Assembly (NCBI RefSeq): GCF_000331995.1
Contig: NC_020134.1
Span: forward strand, 1,649,465-1,713,464
Direction: 5' to 3'
From: Thermoclostridium stercorarium subsp. stercorarium DSM 8532
Lineage (GTDB): Bacteria > Bacillota > Clostridia > DSM-8532
DNA length: 64,000 bases
A program made the position numbers and the translations under genes. This document shows positions 43,478-60,123 of this stretch, piece after piece; position 1 is the stretch's first letter, and every line of letters begins with the position of its first letter. A model generated the notes under the pieces. The model saw nothing but the letters and a program-made list of their open reading frames with translations, was not told where the DNA came from and searched no databases.

Positions 43478-43510
43478 GGGTTGCCCGAAAACCGGACAAC
43501 CCGTTTTTTT
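43478..43510. terminator. Hairpin terminator after the DNRLRE/BclA-like gene
   Basis: GGGTTGCCCG and CGGACAACCC form a 10-bp stem with one mismatch and a five-base loop. A T-run flanks it on the plus strand and a weaker T-rich stretch on the minus strand. The only gene ending into it is the leftward one that stops at 43522. Confidence 0.65.
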
Positions 43511-43521
43511 CACTTTTGATT

Positions 43522-45390
43522 TCATCTTTGATCCGAGATGTTTGCGTTGTTGTTTTCCTGTGATAACCGTTCAATATCGTCATACGGCGGCTCTGTTGTT
43601 GTTCCCGGCAAAAGTACGATGTCAAACTCATTCGGCGGCGTCCCCCATGAATTCCCTACAAATGTGGTAAATGCACGATCCACGAGGAATCCGCCTTTTG
43701 TATTGTAAACAACGTTGTCTCTTATCTCACCCGTTGTGCCGGGATTGATATACATTCCCGTTCTGAGACTGAAGAAGGTATTGCGTTCCAGAAGAACATT
43801 CTGAGTATTCACCTGGGATACAACTGCCCTGTTAACAACCCAGTTGTCCATTGGCGGTGGTTGCTCGGGACCGAAAACGGTATTTTCAATAAGTTTTACA
43901 TTAGGAGCCCCAATCTGGATAAATTCCCGTTCATACGGTATATCGCTCGTAATTGTCAAACCGCGGACCGTTACATCGCTGCCTGTAATCAGAATGGGAA
44001 TAATCTCCGCCCTGAGAAGAATTTCCGCACCGGGTTCACCAAGCAGTGTTATTCCGGTTTTATTTACGTTAATCTGTGTCGTCACTTCGTAAATACCCGA
44101 ACCTATGTGAACCGTTCCTCCGGGCGCCACTGCATTAATACCTTCGGTAATGCTTCCGAACGGGCGGGCAATACTTCCGTTTCCGTCGGTGCTGCCTGCA
44201 CGTACACGGATGTTTTCGGTATCCACCACTTCATTTACCGCCGTGTCAAGTGCCGCCTGCAGGTCCGCTACCGTCAGATAGCCAAAATCAGGGCGTCCTG
44301 TAAGTAATTCCTCCAGAACTATCTCCTGGGCTGTTACGCTCAGTGAATTAAAAAGGGTTAAATCCAGTCCCAGCTGCGGATTGGTTATAGCAGCCCGCAT
44401 TTCTGTGACATTCTGAGCATTGTTCACTTCATCAAGTATTGGATCGGGGGTTACGGCGCTTCCGATTTTGAAAAGCATAATCGACGCGCTTACTCCGGTT
44501 TGTGTTCCGCCGGCGGCATTGTCAAGGCTTACGGGACCTGCACTCGTATGGTTTCTCAAAGTCAGAACGTCGCCTGCAGCGGCATTAATGATAACAAAAC
44601 CGGTGTAACTGCTGTTGCCTTCCCTTGTTCCATATGTGCTTCCGGGTACCGGATCATCGTTTTGGAATAAAGTGAACTGGTTGGCCTCAAGCCCCGTAAC
44701 CGAGTACCACACCGCATAAACCCCTGCGGATTCAACAGTAATGGTATCGGTATTCACGGTATGGGTTATACCGCGCAGGGCGCCGTTATGGCTGAAAGGA
44801 ATGGAACCTTCCACCGGAATTGTCTGATCTCCGTTGTTGTATACATACCCATATGGATTGTCAACAGGTGGAACCGGTGTATCAGAATAAGTAATTACAA
44901 GTCTTGGGAAATACGGTTCATAAACAATGTTATTTGTACCGAACTGGACGAGGGTGACACCGTCGGCGTTAGTCAATGCAATCCCGTGATTTTCAAACGT
45001 TCCGTCAAGCCATTGGTTCACAAGCTCGGTGACGTCAATATTTACAACGGTATACAAATCCGAAGTGCTGATGTCAATTTGTGTACCTGTGGCAACAAAA
45101 CCCGGACGGGTGTTATATGTCACCGTCTGTGCATCAAAAGGATCGGTTACCCTGTTTACAACAATGGGGCTCGGATCGGTCCCTGTTTTTACAATAACCG
45201 ATAACTGCAGTACCGCACTGTCTACACTTGTTACAGGCAAGACAGGTAATTCGATTTCCATCAGGGCAATACACTCCTGAAAAACCGGATCGTTCCCAAC
45301 ATACATCAGGGGGTAAAATGAAAAATTCTGCTCAGGCTGGGCAGAAGACAGAAAAGTGGTATCAGGAATACCAACAGTTACCGTAGGCAT
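43522..45390 (-). CDS. DNRLRE / BclA-like / beta-helix protein, probable spore-surface protein
   Basis: About 622 residues. Order: a DNRLRE domain (about 1-170), a BclA C-terminal-like/TNF-type jelly roll (about 181-310, ending SASIMLFKIG), a helical linker (about 316-392) and a right-handed parallel beta-helix (about 393-600) resembling pectate-lyase-like surface proteins. Start ATG 45390 with AAAGGGAGTG upstream. No signal peptide, membrane anchor or cell-wall sorting signal is seen. A secreted-type architecture without a signal fits mother-cell assembly onto the spore, as for exosporium BclA. It is divergent from gmd-fcl, which supports glycosylation as its link to the neighbouring cluster. 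The spore role is inferred. Confidence 0.75.
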   Translation of the reverse strand: MPTVTVGIPDTTFLSSAQPEQNFSFYPLMYVGNDPVFQECIALMEIELPVLPVTSVDSAVLQLSVIVKTGTDPSPIVVNRVTDPFDAQTVTYNTRPGFVATGTQIDISTSDLYTVVNIDVTELVNQWLDGTFENHGIALTNADGVTLVQFGTNNIVYEPYFPRLVITYSDTPVPPVDNPYGYVYNNGDQTIPVEGSIPFSHNGALRGITHTVNTDTITVESAGVYAVWYSVTGLEANQFTLFQNDDPVPGSTYGTREGNSSYTGFVIINAAAGDVLTLRNHTSAGPVSLDNAAGGTQTGVSASIMLFKIGSAVTPDPILDEVNNAQNVTEMRAAITNPQLGLDLTLFNSLSVTAQEIVLEELLTGRPDFGYLTVADLQAALDTAVNEVVDTENIRVRAGSTDGNGSIARPFGSITEGINAVAPGGTVHIGSGIYEVTTQINVNKTGITLLGEPGAEILLRAEIIPILITGSDVTVRGLTITSDIPYEREFIQIGAPNVKLIENTVFGPEQPPPMDNWVVNRAVVSQVNTQNVLLERNTFFSLRTGMYINPGTTGEIRDNVVYNTKGGFLVDRAFTTFVGNSWGTPPNEFDIVLLPGTTTEPPYDDIERLSQENNNANISDQR

Positions 45391-45459
45391 CTGGTCACTC
45401 CCTTTCTGGAATTTTTTGGATTGTTTAATTTTTACTTTTATTAACATCATATTCTCGTT

Positions 45460-45499
45460 CTGGCAGAAAGTTGCATTAAAAATCGTTTTTTTCTGCCAG
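45460..45499. repeat. Inverted repeat in the leader of the DNRLRE/BclA-like gene
   Basis: CTGGCAGAAA and TTTCTGCCAG form perfect 10-base arms around 20 bases. It lies about 70 bases upstream of the start codon, with no T run on either side, so it is more likely a leader hairpin or operator than a terminator. Confidence 0.6.
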
Positions 45500-45522
45500 T
45501 AATGGATTTGTAATCTGCTAAG

Positions 45523-45546
45523 TTATGTAAATGTAACATTACATAA
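45523..45546. promoter_or_regulatory. Near-palindromic operator-like element between gmd and the DNRLRE gene
   Basis: Arms TTATGTAA and TTACATAA flank an eight-base centre. On the minus strand the same area contains CATAACTTA (45527-45519), which fits the sigma-K -10 pattern CATAnnnTA, but no AC lies 16-17 bases upstream. It is therefore a weak promoter candidate for the leftward gene. Confidence 0.35.
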
Positions 45547-45659
45547 TCTGTCCGCATATTAATGTACCAAAGCTTGTTTTAGCTCCTTATTTCCTGACCG
45601 GATTTAAGGCAATTGTTTTTTGAAACCGAAAACTATTAACTCCACGGGAGGTTATGCCA

Positions 45660-46688
45660 GTGAAAAGAGCGTTGATTACAGGAATTACCGGACAGGATGG
45701 TTCATATCTTGCCGAATTTCTGCTTGAAAAAGGATATGAAGTGCATGGTCTTATAAGAAGAAGCAGTATTGACAATACAGAAAGGATAAACCACCTTCTG
45801 AACGGGCCACGTAAGGTGACTTTGCATTACGGAGATATGACCGATGCAGGAAGCCTGAGCAGATTACTATACAGTATTGAGCCTGACGAAGTCTATAACC
45901 TTGCGGCCCAGAGCCATGTGAAAATATCCTTCGACATGCCGAAATTTACGGCGGACGTTAATGCGATAGGTACTTTAACATTGTTGGAAAGCATCCGTGA
46001 AGTAAACCCGGACATTAAATTTTACCAGGCGTCGTCCAGCGAACTTTTCGGAAAGGTAAGAGAAATACCTCAGAACGAAAATACTCCGTTTTATCCAAGA
46101 AGCCCGTATGCGGTTAGTAAACTTTATGCCTACTGGATTACGGTAAATTACAGAGAAGCATATAACCTGTTTGCCTGCAACGGAATACTTTTTAATCACG
46201 AATCGCCGAGAAGAGGTAAAAACTTTGTAACCCGTAAGATTACAACCGGTATAGCAGACATACTGGCAGGAAAAACTGACTGTCTGTACCTTGGCAACCT
46301 GGACGCAAAACGCGACTGGGGTTATGCCGGGGACTATGTTGAGGCCATCTGGCTGATACTTCAGCAGGATAAACCTGACGACTACGTCGTTGCGACGGGA
46401 GAGACCCATACCGTAAGGGAATTCTGTGAACTTGCTTTCAGAAATGTCGGTATCAATCTCGCCTGGCAGGGAGAAGGACTGAATGAAATAGGTGTGGATA
46501 AAGATACCGGCAGGGTTTTGGTCAGGGTAAGCAGCGAGTTTTTTAGGCCTTCCGAAGTGGATTTGCTTCTTGGCGACCCTACAAAGGCCAAAACAAAGCT
46601 TGGCTGGCAGCCCAGAGTGTCCTTCGAGAAACTGGTTGAAATGATGGTAAGAAGCGATCTTCAGGCCGCGGGAATAAATTTGAGTTAA
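45660..46688 (+). CDS. gmd: GDP-mannose 4,6-dehydratase
   Basis: About 342 residues of the extended SDR family. The NAD(P)-binding [19 protein letters not shown], the SSSELFGKV segment and YAVSKLYAY (YxxxK) identify GMD. It converts GDP-D-mannose to GDP-4-keto-6-deoxymannose. GTG 45660 has GGGAGG eight bases upstream; ATG 45654 is in frame but only two bases from that site. It is followed after 12 bases by fcl, so the two-step GDP-L-fucose pathway is complete. GDP-mannose can come from the manC product encoded 11 kb away. Confidence 0.95.
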
Positions 46689-46700
46689 GGGGAGATTTTC

Positions 46701-47636
46701 ATGGAAAAGGACAGCAGGATATACGTGGCAGGGCACACAGGAATGGTTGGTTCGGCAATTGTCAGATGCCTTGAGCGGAACGGATATCATAATATAATCA
46801 AAAGAACCCATAAAGAACTGGATTTGACCGACCAGGCAGAATGCGAAAAATTCTTTCGGCAGGAAAAACCTGAATATGTATTTTTGGCTGCGGCAAAAGT
46901 GGGTGGAATTCACGCCAACAACACCTATCCCGCCGACTTTATTACCGAAAATTTGCTTATTGAATGTAATGTAATCCAAAGCGCATTTAAAAACAATGTA
47001 AAAAAGCTGATGTTTCTCGGAAGCTCCTGTATCTATCCGAAACTTTGCCCTCAGCCTATTAAGGAGGAGTATCTGCTTACCGGGCCGCTGGAACCCACCA
47101 ATGAGGCTTACGCCATTGCCAAAATAGCAGGCATTAAAATGTGCCAGTCATACAACAAACAATACGGGACTCGGTATATTTCTGTCATGCCGGCAAACCT
47201 TTACGGTATTAACGACAGATTTGACGAAAATAACTCCCATGTGATACCGGCAATGATAATAAAATTCCACAAAGCCAAGACCGAAAAATTGCCGTTTGTT
47301 GAACTGTGGGGCACGGGCAAACCGTTAAGGGAATTCTTATACGTGGATGACATGGCTGAAGCATGCATATATCTTATGCAGCATTATGACGGAAGTGACC
47401 CTGTAAATATCGGTTCAGGGCAGGAAATAAGCATAAGGGAACTGGCCGAGATCATCAGGGATGTGGTTGGCTACACCGGGGAAGTTGTATTTGACGCGAC
47501 AAAACCTGACGGTACGCCGAGAAGAATACTTGATAATTCCAAAATCACGGCAATGGGCTGGAAACCGAAAACCGACATAAGAGAAGGGATAAAAATGGAA
47601 TACGAATATTATCTTAATATGATACAGAAAAAATAA
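46701..47636 (+). CDS. fcl: GDP-L-fucose synthase
   Basis: 311 residues, the usual length. The N-terminal GxxGxxG ([13 protein letters not shown]), GSSCIYP and the catalytic YAIAK are all present. It epimerises and reduces GDP-4-keto-6-deoxymannose to GDP-L-fucose. It shares an operon with gmd and ends at a strong terminator. The fucose donor it makes is a natural substrate for the four fucosyltransferase-like proteins encoded downstream on the other strand. Confidence 0.95.
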
Positions 47637-47640
47637 TATC

Positions 47641-47681
47641 GGAGGGGGGACTTTTGCAAAACACTGTCCCCTCTCCTTTTT
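47641..47681 (+). terminator. Intrinsic terminator of gmd-fcl
   Basis: GGAGGGGGGAC pairs with GTCCCCTCTCC (one G-T) around a 14-base loop, followed by TTTTT. Confidence 0.85.
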
Positions 47682-47691
47682 CGGGAAATTT

Positions 47692-48144
47692 TTATTCGGA
47701 AAACATTTGTTTCAGAACGTCCATCTGTGCCTGCAGCAAAGCCTCGGATTTTGTTTTGAAAGTGAACAACTCACTTTTAAGCTGCTCATATTTTGCCTGA
47801 ATGTTTCGGGCCTCATTATTAGCGTCGTCAATAATTTTCTGTGCTTTCAGTTCTGCTTCCTCAATAATGTTTTTTGCCTTGTCACATGCGTTGGCCTTAA
47901 TCTGCTCGGCAGTGTGCTGAGCAACCAGGATGGAGTGCTGCAGCGATTCTTCAAGCACTTTATAATGCTGTACCGTTTCATTCAGAGTGGATATCTGGCA
48001 TTTCAGTTCATGGATGGTATTGTTCATTTCATTGTAGTCTTCCACTATCTTTGACAAAAGGCTGTCCACCTGTTTTTTGCTGTACCCGTCAAAGAGCACT
48101 CCCCTGAGCGTAAGGCGGCTTAAATCGGCAGCTGTGTAATTCAC
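47692..48144 (-). CDS. DivIVA-like coiled-coil protein (second paralogue)
   Basis: About 150 residues. The N-terminus (NYTAADLSRLTLRG, then FDGYSKKQVDSLL) matches the membrane-binding DivIVA region, followed by a long coiled coil ending at about 145. It is a clear paralogue of the DivIVA encoded at 59677-60123, which begins NFTPNDLSN. Start GTG 48144 with GGGAG eight bases upstream, chosen by alignment with the paralogue. It is the last gene of the glycosyltransferase operon, so it may help place glycan enzymes or a coat structure at a curved membrane. That role is inference. Confidence 0.75.
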   Translation of the reverse strand: MNYTAADLSRLTLRGVLFDGYSKKQVDSLLSKIVEDYNEMNNTIHELKCQISTLNETVQHYKVLEESLQHSILVAQHTAEQIKANACDKAKNIIEEAELKAQKIIDDANNEARNIQAKYEQLKSELFTFKTKSEALLQAQMDVLKQMFSE

Positions 48145-48211
48145 CCGACCATCTCCCAATACATGTTTCTTTAACAATATTCTATTCCGGACTCTTTCCG
48201 GATGTCACAAG

Positions 48212-49144
48212 TCATTTTCTTTGCGGTTTTACCCTGACGTTCTGGGATGTCGCGCCCAATGGTAAGATATCCCTGTCTTTTGCCGGAATTTGAAAACGTG
48301 AAAAATCTCTCGTTGCGATCATATCACAGATGTCCCTGTACCACATGAAATTGCTGATATAAGCGTAGAATCTGGCTCTGTCAAGGTACTCGGAAGTTAT
48401 GGGATAATATTTGTTCACTCTCATCAGAAAATTCTCTCCGAGATGATCCATAAGCATCCCGAAATCATAAGCCGGGTCTCCGAACCCCGCATTGTCAAAA
48501 CCAATTATACCGGTTATTCTCCTTGATGACTTATCAAACAGAATATGATTCGGCTTTAAGTCTCCGTGAATCAGCACCGGCTGAAATTCGAAAAACTCCT
48601 CATTTTCAACGGCGGGCTGGATAATCTGCCGCAGATATTCTTTAACATACTCGGTGCAGTACGGGGCTATTTTTCTCTGCATTGTTTCAAGCTCCAGAAG
48701 CCATTCCTCGCGGTTTTTATTCATTTGTGAGTCCCCGATGCCGGCATATTGCGCTTTCTTCACAGGAATGTTATGCAACTGATCCAGAAATGTCGCAATC
48801 TGCCTTGCGACAGCGTCCTGAGTATGATGATCGAGTTTCAGCAGAATATTCCGGTATAACGGAGAACCTTTGACAAACGAACGTTTGGATACGTTCGGGT
48901 AAACCATTTCCACCTTGGGCAAATCCATAGTGATAAAATCGCGGATGAAGCCAACCACTTCGGCTTCATTCCTTAAATATGCGGCACTCCAGTCATACCT
49001 TGCAAATTTGAATACCACTTCGTTATTGACTATTGCTATGTCACTGTGGGTTCCGTCGGTTTTGTTAAATTCAATCCTTGATAAATCCAGTTGTGGGAAA
49101 CTGCTTTTGATTATTTCAATATATCTGAGCTCACTGGAATTCAA
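48212..49144 (-). CDS. Phosphotransferase of the APH/choline kinase fold
   Basis: 310 residues. The catalytic loop HGDLKPNH (H193, D195, N199) is intact. The DFG-equivalent Mg-binding Asp is replaced by Gly 215 (IIGFDNAGFGDP against the usual IIDxxxAxxGDP). One base (GGT for GAT) makes the difference. So it may be a weak or inactive kinase, or Asp 217 may substitute. In this setting it could phosphorylate a sugar or glycan. TTG start at 49144 with GGGAGGGG upstream. It is 40 bases after the first fucosyltransferase-like gene. Confidence 0.75.
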   Translation of the reverse strand: MNSSELRYIEIIKSSFPQLDLSRIEFNKTDGTHSDIAIVNNEVVFKFARYDWSAAYLRNEAEVVGFIRDFITMDLPKVEMVYPNVSKRSFVKGSPLYRNILLKLDHHTQDAVARQIATFLDQLHNIPVKKAQYAGIGDSQMNKNREEWLLELETMQRKIAPYCTEYVKEYLRQIIQPAVENEEFFEFQPVLIHGDLKPNHILFDKSSRRITGIIGFDNAGFGDPAYDFGMLMDHLGENFLMRVNKYYPITSEYLDRARFYAYISNFMWYRDICDMIATRDFSRFQIPAKDRDILPLGATSQNVRVKPQRK

Positions 49145-49184
49145 CGTTCTCCCCTCCCGTTATTCTTTAAAGAGCTTCAAATCT

Positions 49185-50144
49185 CTAATATAACAGCTTT
49201 ATATTCGTCTCAGGCCAGTCCTTCAATCTGAGCACCGTATTTGACAGGCTGGAATATCCGTTGCCGATGAAGAAATCGCACTGCGCAGCCAGGTATGTGT
49301 CTTTTATTACTTCAATCGTGTCTTTTATCAGTTCCACGCCTTTGTGCCTTTTGTTCGGATATTTCTGAAGGTATGTCGGTATCCGCTCCTTAAGGGGGCG
49401 TTTCTTACTGTCGGTATACAGAAGCATACCGTTAATGTCATAAAATTTTTTATACTGTTTAAGTATTTTTTTAGAATCGGTTATCAGGAAAATATGCCTT
49501 ATGTTATAACGCTCGATATAATGCCATATATGTGGTTTGTAAAGTTCATTCAGATCATAAAGCTGTGCCACTTCATTTACAATGGCGTTTGAACGGCAGT
49601 GCACCCCAAGTATCGGTTTTTCATCCCTGAAGTTGGGATGGGTGTTAATATATTTTTTTATCTCCCGTTTCACAATTGGTTTCGGTATAAGATACTTGTC
49701 ATAAAGTTGCCGGTAAACCTGATACGGGGTTTTTCCGAATGACCAGTGGGATCTGTTGGCAAATTGCAGTATTGAACTTAACGGATAGTAAATATCGCTG
49801 ACTACAATATTTGCGTCACTTCTCATAAGACTTTTCAGATCCCGGCCTTCCATTTTAAACCTGTCGGTGTCCTCTGCAAGAATGTTTTTCGAATTCCATA
49901 CCGGCGGGTAAAAAGTGGATTCCGGACGGACAATATCATGCACCGAAATGTTTGAAACCGGTTCAAAAAATAATTCAAAGGCATTAGTGGAAATGGACTC
50001 GCTGTAAAGGCTCTCCATACCCCAGTATACTACCGGAATTCGGTTGGTCAGTTCTGCCGCAAGAATCTGGCACATGACATGATCCACGTCAGCCCAGATG
50101 CTTTTACCCAGTGATTTTATCAGCAGATACCGGTTCGTCTGCAT
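49185..50144 (-). CDS. FUT8/NodZ-like fucosyltransferase paralogue 1 (degenerate donor motif)
   Basis: 319 residues, one of four paralogues in the cluster. The shared pattern is WADVDHVMCQILAAELTNRIP near the N-terminus in part (WADVDHVM), VHxR, LITD and FFIGNGYSS near the end, which parallels the IGVHVRR, ATDD and FLVCTFSS blocks of alpha-1,6-fucosyltransferases. Here the HxRxxDK motif is HCRSNAI (H182, R184), so Asp and Lys are lost. A 21-base tandem duplication adds IEVIKDT after VELIKDT. It may have altered specificity or be decaying. No membrane segment. Start overlaps paralogue 2 by 41 bases; ATG 50144 with GGAGGTG ten bases upstream. Confidence 0.75.
   Translation of the reverse strand: MQTNRYLLIKSLGKSIWADVDHVMCQILAAELTNRIPVVYWGMESLYSESISTNAFELFFEPVSNISVHDIVRPESTFYPPVWNSKNILAEDTDRFKMEGRDLKSLMRSDANIVVSDIYYPLSSILQFANRSHWSFGKTPYQVYRQLYDKYLIPKPIVKREIKKYINTHPNFRDEKPILGVHCRSNAIVNEVAQLYDLNELYKPHIWHYIERYNIRHIFLITDSKKILKQYKKFYDINGMLLYTDSKKRPLKERIPTYLQKYPNKRHKGVELIKDTIEVIKDTYLAAQCDFFIGNGYSSLSNTVLRLKDWPETNIKLLY
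49297..49338. repeat. 21-bp tandem duplication inside paralogue 1
   Basis: Two adjacent copies (49297-49317 and 49318-49338) both begin GTGTCTTTTAT. In protein terms VELIKDT is followed by IEVIKDT. The other three paralogues have a single unit, such as IEIIKDT or FEIIRDS. Confidence 0.75.
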
Positions 50145-51195
50145 ACGTATTCACACCTCCGTAAAACTCAGGATATTCCTTTCTGTGGCGGATTTCTTCC
50201 AGTTTTCTCCTTATTCTGTCTTCTTTGACCCGCTTTCTCGCCAGCTTCCGTTCATGTTTCAAATCCCTGTAAAAAAGTACAATATTCTCTTCAGGCCAGT
50301 CCCTCAACCGTTTTACCGTGTATGACACGTTGGAATACCCGTTACCTATGAAAAATTCACACATTGAAGCAAGATAGGTATCCTTGATTATTTCAATCCC
50401 CTTCCGCCTTTTCTCAGAATAACTTGTAAGGTGAGGCGCATTTTTCGTGTCGCTTAAATGTCCCCTTTTGGCATCTGTAAAAATAAGCATTTTGCCGTAA
50501 CGCTTCTTGAATTCCTCAAGGATTTCCTCGCAGTCTGTCAGCAACAGTATTTTCCTTATATCATACCTTCTTACAAATTCGTCAATTGTCTTATAATATT
50601 TATTATTCAGATGAGACAAATTTTCCACTTCCTTAACCTTGTCACCGCCGCGCATGTGGACGCCGAGAAGAGGCTTTTCGTCTTTCATGAATTCATCGTA
50701 GAATTCCTGAATTTCCTGCTGTATATCGGGCTTTAGCCTGATATATTTGTCAAACAGGCAGCGGTATATCTGGTGGGCAGTCATCCCGTAAGCCCAGTGG
50801 GTTTTGGGAATAAAAGGTATCAGCGGCCTGACGAAATAATGGGTGTCACTTACCACCACATTGGCGTCACTCATCATCATGTCGCCGAGATTTCTGTATG
50901 CCCACGCCACTTTGTCCAAATCCTCCACTTTCAGATTTTTATCGTTCCATATCGGAGGATAATAGGTAAATCCCGGACGTGCCAAATCATCAAGTGTAAA
51001 ATTTGATACCGGTTCAAAATACAATTCAAACGCATTTCCGGTAAAGGATTCAGAATACAGGCTGTTTGACCCCCAATAGACAACAGGTATCCGGTTTGTA
51101 AGTTCAGCCGCCAGAAGCTGTCCCATTACATGATCCACATCAGACCAGAAACCGCAGCCCCAGCTCTTTATAAGCAGGAATCTGTCACCTGTCAC
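50104..51195 (-). CDS. FUT8/NodZ-like fucosyltransferase paralogue 2
   Basis: About 363 residues. It has the full HxRxxDK motif, H180-R182-D185-K186 (GVHMRGGDK), then LLLTDCEE and FFIGNGYSNVSYTV, the best match of the four to the FUT8 blocks. The N-terminus (MTGDRFLLIKSWG) is shared by the paralogues. A basic C-terminal tail of about 60 residues (RKLARKRVKEDRIRRKL) is extra. GTG 51195 is chosen by paralogue alignment and GGTGGTG six bases upstream; ATG 51201 is an alternative. Predicted role: transfer of fucose from GDP-fucose to a glycan or protein, in the cytoplasm. Confidence 0.78.
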   Translation of the reverse strand: MTGDRFLLIKSWGCGFWSDVDHVMGQLLAAELTNRIPVVYWGSNSLYSESFTGNAFELYFEPVSNFTLDDLARPGFTYYPPIWNDKNLKVEDLDKVAWAYRNLGDMMMSDANVVVSDTHYFVRPLIPFIPKTHWAYGMTAHQIYRCLFDKYIRLKPDIQQEIQEFYDEFMKDEKPLLGVHMRGGDKVKEVENLSHLNNKYYKTIDEFVRRYDIRKILLLTDCEEILEEFKKRYGKMLIFTDAKRGHLSDTKNAPHLTSYSEKRRKGIEIIKDTYLASMCEFFIGNGYSNVSYTVKRLRDWPEENIVLFYRDLKHERKLARKRVKEDRIRRKLEEIRHRKEYPEFYGGVNTYADEPVSADKITG

Positions 51196-52366
51196 CTTCA
51201 TCACCACCAAGATGCAGCTTTTTCAATATTCTGCGGTAAAGATTTTTTATATACTCCACAAAAGATTTGAATATTTTCTTTCTGTCAGACACAATCATTT
51301 TTACGTTTATGGGATACTTGCGTCTTTCCCTTCTGCGGAAAAGAAGTTTTATGTTTTCCTCGGGCCAGTCCTTTATCCGCGATATTGCCCGCGACAAGCT
51401 TGAAAAATCGTTACCGATGAAGAAATCGCATTTTGCTGCAAGGCAGGCATCCTTAATCACTTCTATGCCACGCCGTCTTTTCACTACGGGGTTTTCAATG
51501 AAATACGCCGGTTCGCTGGCCGACAGGCGCTTACAGTCGGTATAAACCACCATGTCACCGTATTTTTCGGTGTATTCCCTGATTACTTCCTCACTGTCGG
51601 TAAGCAGGAATATTTTCTTTATGGAATATCTGTTCATCAGCTTTTTTATTTCTGCATGATACTGGGAATTCGCGTTAAGAAGTTTTCCTCTTCCGAGAAA
51701 ACGGTATTTTCTGTCCTTTTTTATCGGGAATTTCAGTCCGTATTTTCCGCTGTGTCTCTGCCAGTAATGCTCGTCGGCTATGTCCTTTCTGACGTCAATA
51801 ATCATGTCATCCTCTTCCCTGCGTACATGAACGGCCAGAATGGGATGCCCGTCCTTCAGCCATGACTGGTAAAATCCCTGCACTTCCTGAAGGATGTCTT
51901 TCTTGATCCTTATATATTTCTTGAATAGATACCGGTATATTTCGGTGGCGGTCATTCCGTATGCTGCGTTTTCCTTTTTTATGAACGGAATTATTTCTGA
52001 AATCGAAAAATAAACGTCTCCGACAACCACATTGGCATCGCTGCTGATGAGATCTCCTATGCTTCTGTACATCCACGTTTCCTTCCCCGGGTCTTCTACA
52101 AGCAGATTGTCCGCATCCCAGATAGGAGGATAAAAGGTATATTCGTGTTTTGCCAGATCAAAAATACTGTAATCCGAAACGGGCTCAAAATACAGCTCAA
52201 ATCCGTTTGTATGAATAAAACCGTTATGCAGGCAATGGGTTGGCCAGAAAACAACGGGGACACGATTTGTGATTTCGGCAATCAGAAGCTGGGCTAAAAC
52301 ATGCTCCACATCGGACCATAATCTGTAACTCCACGGTTTAATGAGAAGAAATCTGTCCCCCGCCAT
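51185..52366 (-). CDS. FUT8/NodZ-like fucosyltransferase paralogue 3 (with insertion)
   Basis: About 393 residues. Shared blocks are MAGDRFLLIKPWS, WSDVEHVLAQLL and FFIGNDFSSLS. The donor motif is changed to H180-V-R182-REEDD, with Glu at the Asp position and no Lys. About 45 residues are inserted just after it (through FPIKKDRKYRFLGRG). A long basic C-terminal tail follows. Start ATG 52366 (GAGGTG nine bases upstream). It is the first gene after a strong terminator and has its own sigma-K-like promoter, so it leads a second transcript that includes paralogues 2 and 1, the phosphotransferase and the DivIVA-like gene. Confidence 0.75.
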   Translation of the reverse strand: MAGDRFLLIKPWSYRLWSDVEHVLAQLLIAEITNRVPVVFWPTHCLHNGFIHTNGFELYFEPVSDYSIFDLAKHEYTFYPPIWDADNLLVEDPGKETWMYRSIGDLISSDANVVVGDVYFSISEIIPFIKKENAAYGMTATEIYRYLFKKYIRIKKDILQEVQGFYQSWLKDGHPILAVHVRREEDDMIIDVRKDIADEHYWQRHSGKYGLKFPIKKDRKYRFLGRGKLLNANSQYHAEIKKLMNRYSIKKIFLLTDSEEVIREYTEKYGDMVVYTDCKRLSASEPAYFIENPVVKRRRGIEVIKDACLAAKCDFFIGNDFSSLSRAISRIKDWPEENIKLLFRRRERRKYPINVKMIVSDRKKIFKSFVEYIKNLYRRILKKLHLGGDEGDR

Positions 52367-52409
52367 ATAATATTTCACCTCACTGATTTCTGAAAAATTT
52401 CCTCAAGGT

Positions 52410-52437
52410 TATATTATGTATACTTGTCATTTTATGT
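52410..52437 (-). promoter_or_regulatory. Sigma-K-like promoter upstream of fucosyltransferase paralogue 3
   Basis: On the minus strand AC (52437-52436), 17 bases, CATAATATA (52418-52410). The sigma-K consensus is AC-N16/17-CATAnnnTA, so every fixed base matches. It is preceded by GC (GCAC), as in the promoter upstream of manC. The -10 is 44 bases before the ATG at 52366. Confidence 0.65.
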
Positions 52438-52449
52438 GCAAAAATCCGG

Positions 52450-52534
52450 AAAAAAATGCCTGTGCATACCATCACACGGCTGACAGTGACTGAAACGTTA
52501 TAAATCCTTTAATTCAGGCAATTGCACAGGCATT
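52450..52534 (-). terminator. Long-loop terminator after the SDR gene
   Basis: AATGCCTGTGCA and TGCACAGGCATT are perfect 12-base arms separated by 56 bases. On the minus strand the second arm runs into seven T residues. It begins six bases after the SDR stop. The loop is long for an intrinsic terminator. Confidence 0.6.
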
Positions 52535-52540
52535 TATGAT

Positions 52541-53590
52541 TTACTGGCTTAACCCGGCTGACACTTTATTCCATTCGATTGTCCTTCTTAAGCCTTCACT
52601 GAAAGGTTTAAACGGAGAAATGGGAAACTCGGACAAAACTTTTGTTATATCAAGTTTTACCACTTCAGGAGATACCTTTATGTCTTTCAGGCCTTCCCTT
52701 TCGGCAACTTCCTCAGACAGCGAGCTTCCGGTAATCCGGCATATCTCTTCAGCGAGGGTACGGATACTTATGCTGTCCTTTCCGCCGACGTTGTAAACAA
52801 AATCCTTCCCGTAAACCAGAATATAAAGAAGCATCAGCACACAGTCTGCGATGTAGCAGAATGTCCTTATTTTGCTTCCGTTATCAAGCATAACTATTCT
52901 GTTTTCATAAAGCGCCTGCCTTAAGAAATGCGCAAGCACCCTTTCGTCTTTAAGGCCGATCCCCGGCCCGTATGTCATCGAAATTCTTGCCACCTTTACA
53001 TTAACGTTTTCAAAATTCCTGTATGCAAAACACAGGGTTTCCCCCATACGTTTTGATTCTGAATAAATTGCCCGTATGTCCACAGGCGAGCACAGCCCCG
53101 GATAATTCTCGTCGGTCGGGATGTGTTCCTTGTCGGGATTGCCGTAAATTTCCGATGAACTTAAAAACAGCATTGTGGCATTGTCTTGTTTGGCTTTTTT
53201 CAGTAATCTTTCGGTCACAGTCGTATTAAGATGTATGGTATCCATATAGTTCGTAAGAAACTTTTTCGGCTGGGCATATGTCGCACCATGGACGATATAG
53301 TCTGCTTTCGGCTCAAAACAGTCACAATTGGGGTTATTCAGGTCTGCGGCGTAAAAAGCGTATTTACTATTTTCAAATATATCCCTGAGGCTGCTGCCGA
53401 GAGGATTTTTGCTTACGGCAACGATGTCAGTTTCCGCGTTTTTAACCTTATTTGCAAGATGCAGCATGTAAATCAGGTAAGTGCCGATAAGCCCGTTGGC
53501 TCCGGTAATATAAACGGTTTTTCCCTTTAACGGGCTTAAGTCTATTTTTTCAATATATTCAAGGCAGTCCTGCTCTATAAATCTGTCCAT
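52541..53590 (-). CDS. NAD-dependent epimerase/dehydratase (SDR)
   Basis: About 349 residues. GxxGxxG is ITGANGLIG (G30, G33, G36). The catalytic Ser/Tyr/Lys are in LSSSEIYG and Y176-SES-K180. It resembles nucleotide-sugar epimerases and UDP-glucuronate decarboxylases, but the exact substrate cannot be set by eye. Start ATG 53590 with AAAGGAGAAGG upstream. It follows the E1 beta gene by 13 bases and ends at a terminator. With the TPP enzyme pair upstream it may build a modified or branched nucleotide sugar. Confidence 0.82.
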   Translation of the reverse strand: MDRFIEQDCLEYIEKIDLSPLKGKTVYITGANGLIGTYLIYMLHLANKVKNAETDIVAVSKNPLGSSLRDIFENSKYAFYAADLNNPNCDCFEPKADYIVHGATYAQPKKFLTNYMDTIHLNTTVTERLLKKAKQDNATMLFLSSSEIYGNPDKEHIPTDENYPGLCSPVDIRAIYSESKRMGETLCFAYRNFENVNVKVARISMTYGPGIGLKDERVLAHFLRQALYENRIVMLDNGSKIRTFCYIADCVLMLLYILVYGKDFVYNVGGKDSISIRTLAEEICRITGSSLSEEVAEREGLKDIKVSPEVVKLDITKVLSEFPISPFKPFSEGLRRTIEWNKVSAGLSQ

Positions 53591-53603
53591 ATTCCTTCTC
53601 CTT

Positions 53604-54647
53604 TCAGTCTCTGACCAGTTTTGCGGCTTCCCTGAAAATATCCTCGTCTGAAGGATAATAAGCTTTTTCCAGCACGTCGCTGGTGGGCGTCGGCGTGTCC
53701 GGACAGCATACGCGTACAACAGGCTTTTTCAGATGATAAAAGGCCTTTTCGGCTGCAAACGCAGCTATTTCTGAAGCAACACTACCTGTTTTGGAGCCGG
53801 TGTCGGCAATTAACAGCCGTCCCGTTTTTGAAACTGATTCTATAATAATTTCCTCATCAAAAGGTTTCAGTGAGCGCAGATCCACCACTTCCGCCGATAT
53901 ACCCGCTTCCTTGAGCTTATCCGCCGCCTTGAGCGCCTCCACAAGCATATAAGATATCGCCACAATGGTTATATCATTCCCCTTCCGGCGGATAACTCCC
54001 TTGCCTATCGGTATTGAATAAAGGTTTTCGGGTACCGGACCCGTTGTTTTATGAAGCCATCTGTGTTCCACAAACAGAACAGGATTATTGTCGATAATCG
54101 CCGATATCATTAATCCCTTCGCATCATATGGAGTGGCAGGGGCTACGATTTTCAGCCCGGGGACATTCATCAGCATCCCCTGAATACACTGTGAGTGCTG
54201 TGCTCCCGAGCCCCAACCCCTTGCGCTGATAGTCCTTACAACCATCGGCACCTTTACCTGTCCTGCAAACATATATGACCATTTTGAGGCGTGATTCACC
54301 AATTGATCAAGCGACAGTAATATGAAATCCATTCGGGCATGAATTAATACAGGTCTTAACCCTGCCATTGCGGCACCCGCCGCTATACCGGTCAGTGAAT
54401 TTTCGGCTATAGGGGTATCAAATACCCTGTTTTCACCGTACTTTTCTTTAAGTCCCTTTGTCGTTCCGAAAACTCCGGCTACATCATCCACACCTTCTCC
54501 CATGATAAAAACCCTGGGATCCCGAGCAAGGGACTGGTCCAGTGCTTCATGCAGTGCGTCTTTGTATGTGAGTATGCGATCACCTGCAGTGTCGTCCTTT
54601 ATAAAAAAATTATCCAGTTTTTCCACCTGAACCGTTGTCCACGGCAT
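53604..54647 (-). CDS. Thiamine-diphosphate-dependent E1 component, beta subunit
   Basis: About 347 residues, the 2-oxoacid dehydrogenase E1 beta fold: an N-terminal Pyr domain (RVFIMGEGVDDVAGVFGTTK) and a C-terminal transketolase domain (KPVVRVCCPDTPTP). The partner alpha subunit is encoded 16 bases upstream. No lipoyl E2 or E3 gene is in the cluster, unlike catabolic pyruvate or acetoin dehydrogenases. Start ATG 54647 with GGAGGG eight bases upstream. Together the pair should decarboxylate a 2-oxo acid and transfer the resulting acyl/aldehyde unit. Its place in a sugar cluster suggests glycan modification, by inference. Confidence 0.85.
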   Translation of the reverse strand: MPWTTVQVEKLDNFFIKDDTAGDRILTYKDALHEALDQSLARDPRVFIMGEGVDDVAGVFGTTKGLKEKYGENRVFDTPIAENSLTGIAAGAAMAGLRPVLIHARMDFILLSLDQLVNHASKWSYMFAGQVKVPMVVRTISARGWGSGAQHSQCIQGMLMNVPGLKIVAPATPYDAKGLMISAIIDNNPVLFVEHRWLHKTTGPVPENLYSIPIGKGVIRRKGNDITIVAISYMLVEALKAADKLKEAGISAEVVDLRSLKPFDEEIIIESVSKTGRLLIADTGSKTGSVASEIAAFAAEKAFYHLKKPVVRVCCPDTPTPTSDVLEKAYYPSDEDIFREAAKLVRD

Positions 54648-54663
54648 ACAGACATCCCTCCTT

Positions 54664-55629
54664 TCAGTCAACATAAACAAATTCGGTAAGTTCGACCGTT
54701 GAGGGTTTCGGGGAGCTTTTCGCAAAACTGAACGCATCTTCCACGGTGGTGTCTATTTCTTCGTCTATGGCTTTTTCAAGCTCGTCTGTCAAAATTTCTT
54801 TTATTCTCAGGAATTCGGCAAAACGTTTTATAGGGCATTTCGAAAGCCAGTAATCGTACTCTTCCTTTGGTCTGTAACCATCGCCAACGTCGTCCACGGT
54901 TCCGATATGTCCTTTCCATCTGTAGGTAATGCATTCAAGCAGAGTCGGCCCTTCGCCCTTTCGGCATCTTTCAATCGCCTGCCGGGCATATTCCGAAACT
55001 TCCAGCACGTCATTGCCGTCAATCCGGTAACCCGGCATACCGTAGCCACGCCCCCACTGATAAATGCCCTCGCCGGCCTGACGCGCCTTCTGATGCGAGT
55101 TAATGGCATAAAAATTATTTTCACAGACATACACTACCGGAAGCTTCCTTACCGCCGCGAAATTCAGGCTTTCATGGAAGGTTCCCTCATCAGCGGCACC
55201 GTCGCCGAAAAACACAACCGTTACCCTGTCGTTGTTCAAGAGTTTCGAAGCCAGCGCAGTGCCTGTTCCAAGCGGAATATTTCCTCCGACTATTGCAGTG
55301 GAGCCGAGTATACCTACATCGGTATCGACAAGGTGCATCGAGCCTCCTCTGCCCCGTGCGCATCCCGTCGTTCTGAGATACAGCTCTGCAATCATTTTTC
55401 TGATATTTCCGCCTTTGGCGATGTACTGGGCATGGTTCCTGTGAGTACTGAAAATATAATCGTCTTTTCTTAAATGTACGCAAACGCCTGCTGCAACCGC
55501 TTCCTGGCCTATCGACAGATGAATGGGCGTTTTTATTTCGTCATATTTGTATTCATCATTAATCCGCTGTTCAATCCTGCGGATAAGTTTCATTGTTCTA
55601 TACATTTCAATAAGTTTGTCCCTTTCCAT
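54664..55629 (-). CDS. Thiamine-diphosphate-dependent E1 component, alpha subunit
   Basis: 321 residues. The ThDP-binding motif begins GDGAADEGTFHESL (142-155) and ends with CENN (169-172). It has STHRNHAQYIAKG and GRGGSMHL, features of the E1 alpha family of pyruvate/acetoin dehydrogenases. It forms an alpha2beta2 enzyme with the next gene. It is 19 bases after paralogue 4. See the beta subunit for the missing E2/E3 partners. ATG 55629, with GGAG about nine bases upstream. Confidence 0.88.
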   Translation of the reverse strand: MERDKLIEMYRTMKLIRRIEQRINDEYKYDEIKTPIHLSIGQEAVAAGVCVHLRKDDYIFSTHRNHAQYIAKGGNIRKMIAELYLRTTGCARGRGGSMHLVDTDVGILGSTAIVGGNIPLGTGTALASKLLNNDRVTVVFFGDGAADEGTFHESLNFAAVRKLPVVYVCENNFYAINSHQKARQAGEGIYQWGRGYGMPGYRIDGNDVLEVSEYARQAIERCRKGEGPTLLECITYRWKGHIGTVDDVGDGYRPKEEYDYWLSKCPIKRFAEFLRIKEILTDELEKAIDEEIDTTVEDAFSFAKSSPKPSTVELTEFVYVD

Positions 55630-55648
55630 AACTCATCGCTCCTTCAGG

Positions 55649-56569
55649 TCAATATAAGAGTTTAATCCTGTCATTTCTCCAGTCTTTAAGCTCACAGATT
55701 CCAAACGACACGTTTGAATAGCCGTTTCCGATGAAATAATCACATTTTGCCGCAAGCCAGCTGTCCCTGATTATTTCAAACCCTTTTACCCTGTTATCGT
55801 GATATTCCTGGTAATGGACACCCGGCCCGTCCTTTGGTACCCTTCTGCAGTCGGTATAAACCAGCAGACTTCCGTACCTTTCTCTGTATTCTTCCAGAAT
55901 GTCAATACAGTCGGTCATTAAAAATATCCGCATTCCCGGATTGGTTTCAAGCACTTTTTCTATTTCCCGGGGATAACGTTGGTTTAATTCATGGAGATGT
56001 TTCACTTCGGTTAATTTATCACTGCTTCTTATATGCACTGCCAAAAAACGCGCGCCTTTCATGTTTTCGGCGTAAAATGTCTCAATACTGTCCTGCAGAT
56101 CTTTTTTAAGCCGGATATATTCGCATATGAGTCTGTGGCAAACTTTCCTTCTGTTTAACCCGAAAAGCCGGTGCTTTTTCGGTATTGAGGGAATTATTTT
56201 ATCCACATCCGTGTATCTGTCGCAGACAACAACGTCTGCCTCACAATTTTTCAAGCACTCCGTAGTTATCGCCGGTTCATTTCTTGAAAAGTCAGGAACA
56301 GTGAGAAAATTCCCACTGTTCCACCGTTCGGGGTAAAATAAAAATTTATCCTGAGCCAGAGCATGGATATCCAAATCCGATACAGGCATGAAAAATTCCT
56401 CAAAAGCGTTTACATTTTCGTCCGGTGCGTAAAGACTACCCTTTCCCCAGTAAACAACAGGAATACGGCCCACAATTTCCGCAACAAGCAGCTGAGCTAA
56501 AACATGATGTAATTCGTTCCATAATCCCATGCCTATTTCCCTTATCAGTAAGAATTTTTTCCCTTCCAT
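55649..56569 (-). CDS. FUT8/NodZ-like fucosyltransferase paralogue 4
   Basis: 306 residues, the shortest and cleanest of the four. The complete donor motif is H179-R181-D184-K185 (AVHIRSSDK). LMTDCID, then YFIGNGYSNVSF (GNGYSN at 281-286), complete the signature. The N-terminus reads MEGKKFLLIREIGMGLWNEL. It has no tail beyond the common KLLY end. It lies between manC and the E1 pair with gaps of 26 and 19 bases, so it is in the first operon and expressed with them. ATG 56569; GGGGG lies nine bases upstream. Confidence 0.78.
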   Translation of the reverse strand: MEGKKFLLIREIGMGLWNELHHVLAQLLVAEIVGRIPVVYWGKGSLYAPDENVNAFEEFFMPVSDLDIHALAQDKFLFYPERWNSGNFLTVPDFSRNEPAITTECLKNCEADVVVCDRYTDVDKIIPSIPKKHRLFGLNRRKVCHRLICEYIRLKKDLQDSIETFYAENMKGARFLAVHIRSSDKLTEVKHLHELNQRYPREIEKVLETNPGMRIFLMTDCIDILEEYRERYGSLLVYTDCRRVPKDGPGVHYQEYHDNRVKGFEIIRDSWLAAKCDYFIGNGYSNVSFGICELKDWRNDRIKLLY

Positions 56570-56595
56570 CTGGGAATTCCCCCGTATTTACGTGT

Positions 56596-57669
56596 TCACA
56601 GGAGATCCTCATGCCCCTGTTGCTTAAGTTTGTCGACAAGCATTTTTATTTTTTGGGATTTATCCCTGGGGCAAACCAGTACCTCATCCTTTGTACCAGC
56701 CACAATCATGTTGTCCAGATCTATCGTGCATATGGCGATATCCTTTCCAAATATAATGGAATTTGTGGTATTTATCCCGATATGCCTTCCCTGAACCCTG
56801 TTTCCGTCAGGATCGGCCTCAATGGTTTTCGCAAGAGCATCTATGCTTCCAATATCATCCCAGTCAAAATATGCTCTCACGACATATAGCGATTCTGCGC
56901 ATTTTTCAAGAACGCCGTTGTCAAAGGAAATACTCTGAAGCTCTCCATAAGCCTTTTCAACAGCTTCGGAAACTCCTTTTTCTTCCTCTTCCAAAGCCTC
57001 CGAAAGTTTGTTGTAATGCTCAGGCAAGTATTTCTGTATGTTGCGTAAAATTGCCCCTGTTGTACCCACCACTATCCCGCAGTTCCAAAGATAATCGTCC
57101 GAAAGAATAAGTTGCTTTGCCCGTTCCAAAGAAGGCTTTTCAATAAAATCAAGTACTTTCGATATTCCCGAACCTGTATCAGTTTCAGGTCCGGCATGGA
57201 TATAGCCATATCCGTCCGCAGGATAGGAAGGCTTAACACCGATAATGACAATCGCATCGTTTTTTTCAGCGGTATTAAAAGCCTGTTTCACCGCCTCCGC
57301 GTAACTGTCCTTGTCCCTTACGTATCCGTCGGCGGGTACAAAGCACAGTACTCCTTCTCCGTATCTTTTCTTAAGCACCAGTGTTGCATACGCAATGCAT
57401 GCGGCAGTATTTTTTCTTTCGGGTTCGGTCAGTATATTTTCTTCAGGAATATATTTCCTGACTGTGTTTTTGGTAATATCAGTCAAGCGAAGGTTAGTTA
57501 TGATAAAGCACCGTTCGGGTTCTACAACCCCGCTAAGCCTTATGACGGTCTGTACCAGCATAGGGTTTTCGCCTTCAACGGGTATGAACTGTTTTGGGCT
57601 TGCTTCCTTTGAAAGGGGCCACAGCCTTGTGCCCGATCCACCGGCCATAAGTATGGCAAATTTCTCCAT
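56596..57669 (-). CDS. manC: Mannose-1-phosphate guanylyltransferase
   Basis: 357 residues, the short form without an isomerase domain. The nucleotidyltransferase signature is AGGSGTRLWPLS (9-20), followed by SPKQF and FIEKPSLERA. The usual PADH segment reads PADG here. It makes GDP-mannose from mannose-1-phosphate and GTP, the precursor for gmd and fcl. It is first in the operon manC, paralogue 4, E1 alpha, E1 beta, SDR, and has a sigma-K-like promoter 83 bases upstream. Confidence 0.93.
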   Translation of the reverse strand: MEKFAILMAGGSGTRLWPLSKEASPKQFIPVEGENPMLVQTVIRLSGVVEPERCFIITNLRLTDITKNTVRKYIPEENILTEPERKNTAACIAYATLVLKKRYGEGVLCFVPADGYVRDKDSYAEAVKQAFNTAEKNDAIVIIGVKPSYPADGYGYIHAGPETDTGSGISKVLDFIEKPSLERAKQLILSDDYLWNCGIVVGTTGAILRNIQKYLPEHYNKLSEALEEEEKGVSEAVEKAYGELQSISFDNGVLEKCAESLYVVRAYFDWDDIGSIDALAKTIEADPDGNRVQGRHIGINTTNSIIFGKDIAICTIDLDNMIVAGTKDEVLVCPRDKSQKIKMLVDKLKQQGHEDLL

Positions 57670-58080
57670 TTATCCGCACCCCTTTACATGTTACCAAAGC
57701 CTGAAAAGTGGCTTCATCAACCACCCTAAGGCAATGATTCCTTTGTTGTTATATATTATGTAAATTTAATGGATAAGGTGCACGAAAAAAAGCAAAAACA
57801 TAAAAAAATTACATTATTCGACCAGTTTAAAGACCACTATCATCCTGTTTCAGTTTTTACTCAGGAAATGTAAAAACAAAGCAGGGTACCGGCGTTATCG
57901 CCAAGACGTGAAAAACAAAAGGCTATTAAAAACTGTCTGATAAAGCGCACGAAACATCAGTGTCATGATATGAAAAAGCTGATAATTTCTCCGGAACTTT
58001 TAAGAATAGTTTAGGCATTTCACCGAAAAGGCAAAAAAATTTTGCGAAATAAAGTCATGAAGAATATTTAGGACATTTTT
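57670..58080. other. Intergenic region upstream of manC
   Basis: 411 bases between the manC start and the end of the yneA-like gene, both leftward. It contains the sigma-K-like promoter at 57752-57779. No coding sequence, strong hairpin or terminator was recognised in 57780-58080. Confidence 0.55.
57752..57779 (-). promoter_or_regulatory. Sigma-K-like promoter of the manC operon
   Basis: On the minus strand AC (57779-57778), 17 bases, CATAATATA (57760-57752), a full match to AC-N16/17-CATAnnnTA. The GC before AC and the identical -10 are shared with the promoter at 52410-52437. Confidence 0.65.
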
Positions 58081-59676: not shown

Positions 59677-60123
59677 TTATTCCATTTCATTCAGTAATTT
59701 CATCTGGGATTGTAAAAGGCTTAAAGCTTTGCTTTTATATACCGCCATGTCCTTTTTGAGCCTCTCGGCTTCAAACTGAATTTTAACCACTTCGCGGTTC
59801 GCCTCATCAATAATCTCTTTCGCTTTATTCTGAGCTTCGGCTATTATATTCTCGGCTTTCTTCTCCGCATTGCTGATAATCTCGCTGCTGGACTGCTGAG
59901 CAAGTATCAGACTTTTCTTAAGGGTATCCTCCATTTTTTCATAATGAGCAAGCCTGTCCTTCAGCTCCATAACCTGTTCCTTTGCTTTCATCAGTTCACG
60001 TATGTAATCCGAATAATCCTCAATGATTTTCTGGATTACTTCATATACCTGATTCTCATCCACACCTCTGACTACCGATCTGCGGAACACTATATTCGAT
60101 AAATCATTGGGAGTAAAGTTCAT
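59677..60123 (-). CDS. divIVA: Cell division/polarity protein DivIVA
   Basis: 148 residues. The N-terminal membrane-binding domain (NFTPNDLSNIVFRRSVVRG) precedes a long coiled coil (about 40-140). DivIVA marks curved membranes at septa and poles. It is in the standard order with yggT and sepF upstream on the same strand. A paralogue is encoded at 47692-48144 in the glycan cluster. The S4-domain gene ylmH, usually between yggT and divIVA, is absent. Confidence 0.9.
   Translation of the reverse strand: MNFTPNDLSNIVFRRSVVRGVDENQVYEVIQKIIEDYSDYIRELMKAKEQVMELKDRLAHYEKMEDTLKKSLILAQQSSSEIISNAEKKAENIIAEAQNKAKEIIDEANREVVKIQFEAERLKKDMAVYKSKALSLLQSQMKLLNEME

Follow-up and report, generated by a model that had tools for sequence, protein, structure and literature searches.

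P0001, a predicted stalkless BclA-like spore-surface protein encoded in a GDP-fucose gene block of Thermoclostridium stercorarium

The window analysed here is a 64-kb stretch (64,000 nucleotides) of contig NC_020134.1 of Thermoclostridium stercorarium subsp. stercorarium DSM 8532. It contains a block of 13 genes (window positions 43522–57780, ~14 kb), with the gene for P0001, a protein composed of a DNRLRE domain, a BclA_C domain and a β-helix without a signal peptide, at one end. The block reads, in order, P0001, gmd, fcl, a DivIVA-domain gene, an APH-fold kinase gene, three glycosyltransferase genes (GT1, GT2 and GT3), an epimerase-like gene, E1 beta, E1 alpha, a fourth glycosyltransferase gene (GT4) and manC, and it is complete and in identical gene order in five genomes (G000, G024, G026, G016 and G330). 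P0001 occupies 43522–45390 on the minus strand, from an ATG at 45390 to a stop codon at 43522–43524, and comprises 622 amino acids (aa), exactly the frame given in an initial annotation made from the sequence alone. It lies opposite gmd–fcl, as also described there: P0001 and gmd diverge, with start codons 263 bp apart. Its four orthologues are full length and 74–75% identical, and third-position changes among them are 2.7–3.0 times first-position changes, which together argue that the reading frame is not due to chance. The start is supported by a ribosome-binding site (GAAAGG..GTGA) conserved just 5′ of the N-terminal MPT in all five block genomes. A terminator-like hairpin lies 3′ of the gene (43478–43502, minus strand); with 17 such sites in the region against 16.0 expected, it is weak evidence by itself. 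P0001 has no paralogues in its own genome at E ≤ 0.01.

The domain order originally proposed (DNRLRE, then BclA_C, then β-helix) is borne out by NCBIfam and Pfam profiles and by an AlphaFold2 model of P0001 (mean pLDDT 81.0, pTM 0.48). By NCBIfam and the model, residues 1–170 (44881–45390, minus strand) form a DNRLRE/CBM96-type β-sandwich, which we propose as the spore-binding module. The NCBIfam DNRLRE profile matches residues 11–167 with 107.3 bits (cut-off 34), and the Pfam CBM96 profile matches residues 10–154 with 41.9 bits (cut-off 26). The CBM96 name is the weaker of the two, because a six-frame search of the P0001 genome with the CBM96 model gave no match at E ≤ 0.001, P0001 included, and the G330 orthologue gave none at E ≤ 0.01. 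Residues 1–169 of the model match a chondroitin-sulfate-binding carbohydrate-binding module (CBM; 8wab_B, Z 22.2, rmsd 2.5, 167 residues aligned).

The second domain, defined by Pfam and the model as residues 176–311 (44458–44865, minus strand), is a TNF/C1q-like BclA_C domain and the proposed trimerization module. Residues 182–294 match the Pfam BclA_C profile with 53.7 bits (cut-off 38), which places the domain in this family. Among solved structures the head of F-BclA (9h38) is its best match both in sequence (E 8.5e-16) and in fold (Z 19.6, rmsd 2.3, 132 residues aligned, 33% identity in the structural alignment); BclA (1wck) follows with Z 16.8, rmsd 2.2 and 128 residues aligned, and ExsF/BxpB also matches P0001 by fold. 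A helical linker (residues 312–390; 44221–44457, minus strand), recognized from alignment and the model and also found in the relative L007, leads to a right-handed β-helix with a conserved ISDQR end (residues 391–622; 43525–44220, minus strand). The Pfam Beta_helix score for residues 466–581 is 24.3 bits, just under the curated cut-off of 25.9, and the β-helix is assigned from the model, in which residues 388–605 match the β-helices of solved polysaccharide lyases (Z 19.6, rmsd 2.8, 197 residues aligned). Residues 391–600 are 78–81% identical among the four block orthologues. Compared with solved structures, then, the three regions correspond to a CBM, the F-BclA head and lyase-type β-helices, in that order.

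The initial annotation had also noted that P0001 lacks an export signal, and the orthologues agree. An in-frame stop codon lies only two codons 5′ of the ATG in G024, two in G016 and six in G330, so that a signal peptide cannot fit in these three genes. In G000 and G026 upstream room exists, yet the conserved ribosome-binding site precedes MPT. The N-terminus is not hydrophobic either: the highest 19-residue hydropathy mean within the first 40 residues of the G000 protein is 0.35.

The closest structural counterpart of the BclA_C domain is a spore protein. The entry labelled FliK in our sequence table, PDB 9H38, is named F-BclA-CTD in its source publication (PMC11952670), where it is the tip fibrillum of the F-ENA spore fibres of Bacillus thuringiensis. 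As described there (PMC11952670), F-BclA has a collagen stalk, an N-terminal contact with F-ENA and the BclA_C head at its end. P0001, in contrast, contains no collagen, has no DUF4183 partner in its genome, and carries a DNRLRE domain before and a β-helix after BclA_C. It shares the BclA_C family domain with the BclA proteins of Bacillus anthracis/cereus and with BclA1–3 of Clostridium difficile, but differs in having no collagen repeat, no exosporium leader and an internal rather than C-terminal BclA_C. The longest run of GXX triplets is only 2–3 in the window protein and its four homologues (L001–L005). In spite of these differences, P0001 most likely works like BclA.

Relatives of the individual modules suggest where this architecture comes from. 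A scan of named genomes yielded 31 relative loci, several of whose frames run off contigs or hold masked bases, and 27 of them contain at least six collagen triplets in a run; the four with fewer are L007, which has masked bases, L015, whose frame extends beyond its contig, L017, with five triplets, and L035, with a short frame. Four Desulfosporosinus proteins (L013, L019, L024 and L029) have the order DNRLRE–collagen–BclA_C; L032, with a frame interrupted by masked bases, was not counted with them. The four resemble P0001 in a related N-terminal module at the protein start (24–27% identical) and in BclA_C (48–50% identical), but differ from it in a longest collagen run of 37–119 triplets and in having no β-helix. 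In the two that were run against Pfam (L024 and L029), CBM96 and collagen are above cut-off and BclA_C is under it. Another Desulfosporosinus protein, L007, combines collagen-like repeats, BclA_C, the common helical linker and a β-helix that aligns only in part. The P0001-type β-helix ending in SDQR stands after collagen in Alkaliphilus L009 and in L141, L143 and L144, and the β-helices on collagen proteins are 45–54% identical to that of P0001. The domain combination had been called unusual. The complete three-domain protein is indeed rare (6 of 391 genomes in the class sample, plus G016 from the family search; the 31%-identity partial matches in G009 (C58) and G032 are excluded from the full-length count), but it is no isolated oddity, as each module recurs on collagen-stalk proteins. 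P0001 is therefore best described as a shuffled BclA-like protein without a stalk.

Two further arrangements were seen among these relatives. Alkaliphilus peptidifermentans carries three adjoining paralogues with related N-termini beside sugar-nucleotide genes (L009:8525-15507), the first of which, read over its full length, is a collagen plus β-helix protein. In genus g32, a DNRLRE module 55–63% identical to that of P0001 is joined to another domain that begins with TNF(C/S)Y(S/A)QL (L142:8321-9457 and L145:8403-9506). This domain has no Pfam match, and the fusion is possibly another spore-surface family.

The genes next to P0001 are predicted to supply GDP-L-fucose. On the plus strand, gmd (45654–46688) encodes a GDP-mannose 4,6-dehydratase (TIGR01472, 568.6 bits, cut-off 415) and fcl (46701–47636) a GDP-L-fucose synthase (NF047922, 500.6 bits, passing the cut-off of 500 by 0.6). 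Synthesis of GDP-L-fucose is well supported as a prediction, because both proteins exceed their NCBIfam cut-offs. At the other end, manC (56596–57669, minus strand) encodes a mannose-1-phosphate guanylyltransferase-like protein (PF00483, 133.8 bits) that scores 270.3 bits against TIGR01479, under the equivalog cut-off of 372.95.

Four genes on the minus strand encode fucosyltransferase-like proteins. GT2 (P0002; 50104–51210) matches FUT8_N_cat with 39.1 bits (cut-off 27.6), and its model matches NodZ (Z 22.0, rmsd 3.1, 255 residues aligned) and FUT8 (Z 20.8, rmsd 3.0, 264 residues aligned), with the first other protein at Z 8.7. Its HMRGGDK motif aligns with HVRRTDK of FUT8. By its model GT2 thus has the NodZ/FUT8/POFUT superfamily fold together with the GDP-binding region, and fucose transfer is predicted. 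GT1, GT3 and GT4 are 40–53% identical to GT2: GT1 (49185–50144; 53% identical) matches NodZ at E 4.3e-4, under the cut-off; GT3 (51185–52378; 46% identical) matches O-FucT with 27.1 bits, under the cut-off of 31.5; and GT4 (55649–56569) matches NodZ with 31.6 bits (cut-off 28.3). Profile scans of the 13 block proteins matched no flippase, polymerase or ligase/oligosaccharyltransferase family, and hydropathy indicated no clear membrane protein among them, with a single peak of 1.96 in the epimerase-like protein. This composition suits cytoplasmic glycosylation of an unexported protein.

The remaining block genes, all on the minus strand, are less easily assigned. The DivIVA-domain protein (47692–48177; PF05103, 120.2 bits) is a fixed member of the block in all five genomes, and a second DivIVA-domain protein is encoded outside it at 59677–60123; the block protein is possibly a scaffold that brings enzymes to the forespore. 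The APH-fold kinase (48212–49144) scores far under every listed antibiotic-resistance cut-off, and a role in resistance was rejected on this ground. An NAD-dependent sugar epimerase/dehydratase family protein (52541–53719; PF01370, 118.5 bits) is followed by two genes identified by profile matches as pyruvate dehydrogenase (PDH) E1 beta-like and alpha-like (53604–55629). This E1-like pair sits within the GDP-fucose glycan block, and its substrate is perhaps a branched or acylated sugar.

Glycosyltransferase genes beside genes for BclA-type proteins have precedents. PMC7157674 describes C. difficile SgtA, encoded beside bclA3, as a GT-A type O-GlcNAc transferase that glycosylates BclA3 peptides from the collagen region, and bclA/bclB of Clostridium sporogenes adjoin a glycosyltransferase gene (PMC7333573). 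The P0001 block shares with SgtA–BclA3 the position of a transferase gene beside a BclA-type acceptor gene, but it contains four NodZ/FUT8-type genes together with GDP-fucose genes, and its candidate acceptor has no collagen.

Conserved promoter sequences point to late expression of the glycan genes in the mother cell. The sigma-K consensus used was mACm / CATANNNTA, and both strands of the window were searched with the strict pattern mACm-N15/16-CATANNNTA. A perfect sigma-K-type promoter stands before manC (57752–57780, minus strand), at the outer block edge, and another before GT3 (52410–52438, minus strand); the pattern is present at both positions in all five block genomes. The three further loci of the block within the family (79 kb) contain the strict pattern solely before manC and GT3, each of them at both positions; in G330 it occurs before both and once more away from the block. 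A sigK gene is present in the genome. The pattern agrees with the C. difficile sigma-K elements, for which PMC3789822 gives AC at −35 and a sequence resembling CATATAAT at −10, and with the sigma-K dependence of C. difficile bclA1–3 stated there. A sigma-K-like promoter of gmd–fcl (AACA-N16-CATATTAAT; 45535–45563, plus strand) is off the consensus in its final two bases in this genome, and the AACA/CATA pair on the gmd side is invariant in the block genomes at the right spacing. The P0001/gmd intergenic region also contains a palindromic footprint, TTATGTAATGTTACATTTACATAA (45523–45546, no strand assigned), with few changes among the five block genomes; it is kept in G330 as well, outside the order, and is a possible regulator site. 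Two sigma-E patterns gave one match each (55108+ and 9384+), neither of which precedes P0001 or manC, and sigma-70 type promoters (43 in the region against 32.1 expected, sd 5.0) were not used.

These promoters also bear on a different reading of P0001, as a vegetative protein of a biomass degrader, carbohydrate-binding or pectin-lyase-like and secreted by non-classical export. Its CBM96-type and β-helix folds do match carbohydrate-active enzymes. Against this, a signal peptide cannot fit in three orthologues, the best solved match of BclA_C is the head of a spore fibre, relatives of the β-helix stand on collagen proteins, and the glycan genes carry sigma-K-type promoters, so we regard vegetative secretion as improbable.

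The distribution of the block gives good support to lateral transfer, and movement as a unit is the simplest reading. ACT and LysM genes adjoin in seven of eight block-free stretches read, including that of G025 from the same genus, with 83–311 bp between the ends of the two matches; the eight come from 24 block-free genomes with an ACT match, and the contig of the eighth, G020, stops short of the expected LysM. With the block between them, ACT and LysM are 14.6 kb apart in the window and 15.1 kb apart in G024. G026 likewise carries the block between ACT and LysM, with ~10 kb of additional genes separating manC from LysM/lexA. This segment (L154:4316-13628) is a second insertion at the site and carries, judged by reading, a two-component system, two other genes and what appear to be genes for ABC sugar transporters. 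The G016 contig starts at P0001, with the ACT side outside it, and next to manC this genome has transporter genes rather than LysM. Nucleotide similarity to G016 and G330 starts at the P0001 end and stops at about the start of manC, with the conserved manC promoter just beyond the edge. G330 is related at the class level only, outside the order: it contains the whole block with proteins 61–85% identical and unrelated flanks, and its P0001 is 74–75% identical, as close as those of congeners, whereas its ProA is 45% identical to that of the window. Within the order, relatives of GT2 occur in 4 of 33 genomes, all among the five with full-length P0001 (P = 1.2e-4, uncorrected for relatedness).

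Taken together, these features make it probable, in our judgement, that P0001 is a stalkless BclA-like spore-surface protein encoded in a laterally transferred, late mother-cell cassette, and that it is glycosylated in the cytoplasm before coating the spore. In the mechanism we propose, mother-cell sigma-K would switch on manC and its downstream genes late in sporulation, and probably gmd–fcl as well, and P0001 itself would presumably be made during sporulation. The manC, gmd and fcl products would make GDP-mannose and GDP-L-fucose, from which the soluble NodZ/FUT8-fold transferases may assemble a glycan containing fucose on P0001, still within the mother-cell cytoplasm; modification there would require no signal peptide, flippase or ligase. 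P0001 would trimerize through BclA_C. Its N-terminal DNRLRE/CBM-type module, in the position of the anchor in BclA, would hold the developing spore surface, and the β-helix and glycan would be displayed outward after lysis of the mother cell. The initial annotation had already placed P0001 on the spore surface, assembled from the mother-cell cytoplasm and acting as the acceptor of the glycan. This proposal is strengthened by the F-BclA/BclA fold, the collagen-bearing relatives, the sigma-K-type promoters of the glycan genes and co-inheritance with fucosyltransferase-like genes in a single mobile block. It remains only partly supported, because P0001's own promoter has no sigma-K match and because we infer its spore location and its glycan from the evidence above.

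Several observations weigh against the proposed role of P0001. On the side of regulation, no strict sigma-K pattern was found upstream of the gene, where the conserved footprint contains a CATAA/CATAACTTA-like −10 without an AC −35. The strict pattern also arises by chance: 60 Markov resamples gave 1.05 matches on average and at most 3, against three in the window, the third of which lies antisense within a CPBP gene, and five scattered matches occur in 102 kb of six block-free loci. The case for sigma-K therefore rests on the conserved position of the matches and not on their count. With respect to known spore proteins, P0001 does not qualify as a strict BclA, because it has neither the collagen stalk nor the N-terminal exosporium leader; the DNRLRE domain starts at the start codon, and no NCBIfam leader profile matches at E ≤ 1. 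DUF4183, the F-ENA fibre subunit, has 0 matches in the genome. Membership in F-ENA, which was considered because the N-terminal MPTVTV resembles the hook motif MPVIKPV given in PMC11952670, was rejected for this absence; DUF4183 occurs in 4 of 32 genomes of the family, none of which has P0001, and residues 3–7 are modelled as a strand at the DNRLRE domain, which also speaks against a hook. Finally, the BclA_C scores of L007, L024 and L029 (27.8–31.6 bits) lie under the Pfam cut-off of 38.

The occurrence of BclA_C beyond spore formers is a further point of this kind. The domain is found in Dyadobacter L015 (50% identical; the part that can be read contains no collagen), in giant viruses, Bodo saltans virus among them, and in a tail family of phages: the best PHROGs match of P0001 residues 180–310 is ‘collagen like minor tail’, with 113.6 bits. 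Together with the many viral fibre proteins that match the P0001 model in part, this raises the question of whether P0001 derives from a phage tail or receptor-binding protein, either domesticated or left as a remnant. The genomic context leads us to rate such an origin as highly improbable despite the viral fold and PHROGs matches. Six proteins encoded nearby were compared with PHROGs: nothing matched the DivIVA-like protein, GT2 or ACT, and the families hit by LysM, the APH-fold kinase and the epimerase-like protein are of non-structural, unknown or lysis function; flanking genes beyond these six were judged from translations only. P0001 is, moreover, intact and conserved with the glycan block in five genomes.

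The link between P0001 and the glycan is challenged by two genomes. G009 encodes a P0001-like protein (57% identical) and no GT2 relative, on a contig that extends only 242 bases upstream of this match. G313, from another family, encodes a P0001-like protein (38% identical) with no other window-block gene at E ≤ 1e-8 in the 19 kb read. The P0001 family therefore does not require the glycan. These cases favour an alternative in which P0001 does lie on the spore surface while the glycan genes make a separate spore polysaccharide or modify other spore proteins, the two being linked merely by a common island; the E1 pair, the epimerase-like protein and the APH-fold kinase, which have no assigned use, fit it as well. 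Such a polysaccharide is harder to reconcile with a set of 13 proteins in which no flippase, polymerase or ligase family and no clear membrane protein was found, and P0001 is the sole non-enzymatic surface-type protein of the block, at one block end in all five genomes. We consider this alternative rather unlikely, though the strongest competitor of P0001 as the acceptor. The inference of transfer has its own weak point in a yardstick of a single gene, ProA: that of G313 is 68% identical to the window's, and the G330 ProA may therefore be unusually divergent.

Searches confined to the open PMC library found no paper on BclA together with DNRLRE and none on Clostridium stercorarium with spore and exosporium. 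A search for DNRLRE domains with spores returned phage work only, one for collagen-like, β-helix, exosporium and spore returned Escherichia coli work only, and fucosyltransferase was not mentioned among the matches listed for it with endospore or exosporium. To our knowledge, few acceptor proteins paired with glycan pathways are known outside Bacillus and C. difficile.

In this genome a single 14-kb block brings together late mother-cell promoters, a candidate acceptor, four fucosyltransferase-like genes and the genes for GDP-fucose. Our judgement is evenly balanced on the broader idea that it is a self-contained mobile spore-surface cassette, an acceptor with its own fucosylation pathway under sigma-K promoters, which has moved between distant Clostridia and replaces or adds to spore-surface identity. 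As such it might be likened to the flagellin-glycosylation or O-antigen islands of vegetative cells. The surface of a spore matters for its adhesion, clumping and recognition, and the apparent movement of the block between distant lineages suggests that spore-surface identity may be exchangeable by lateral transfer. P0001 itself indicates that BclA-type proteins can lose their collagen and acquire other heads.

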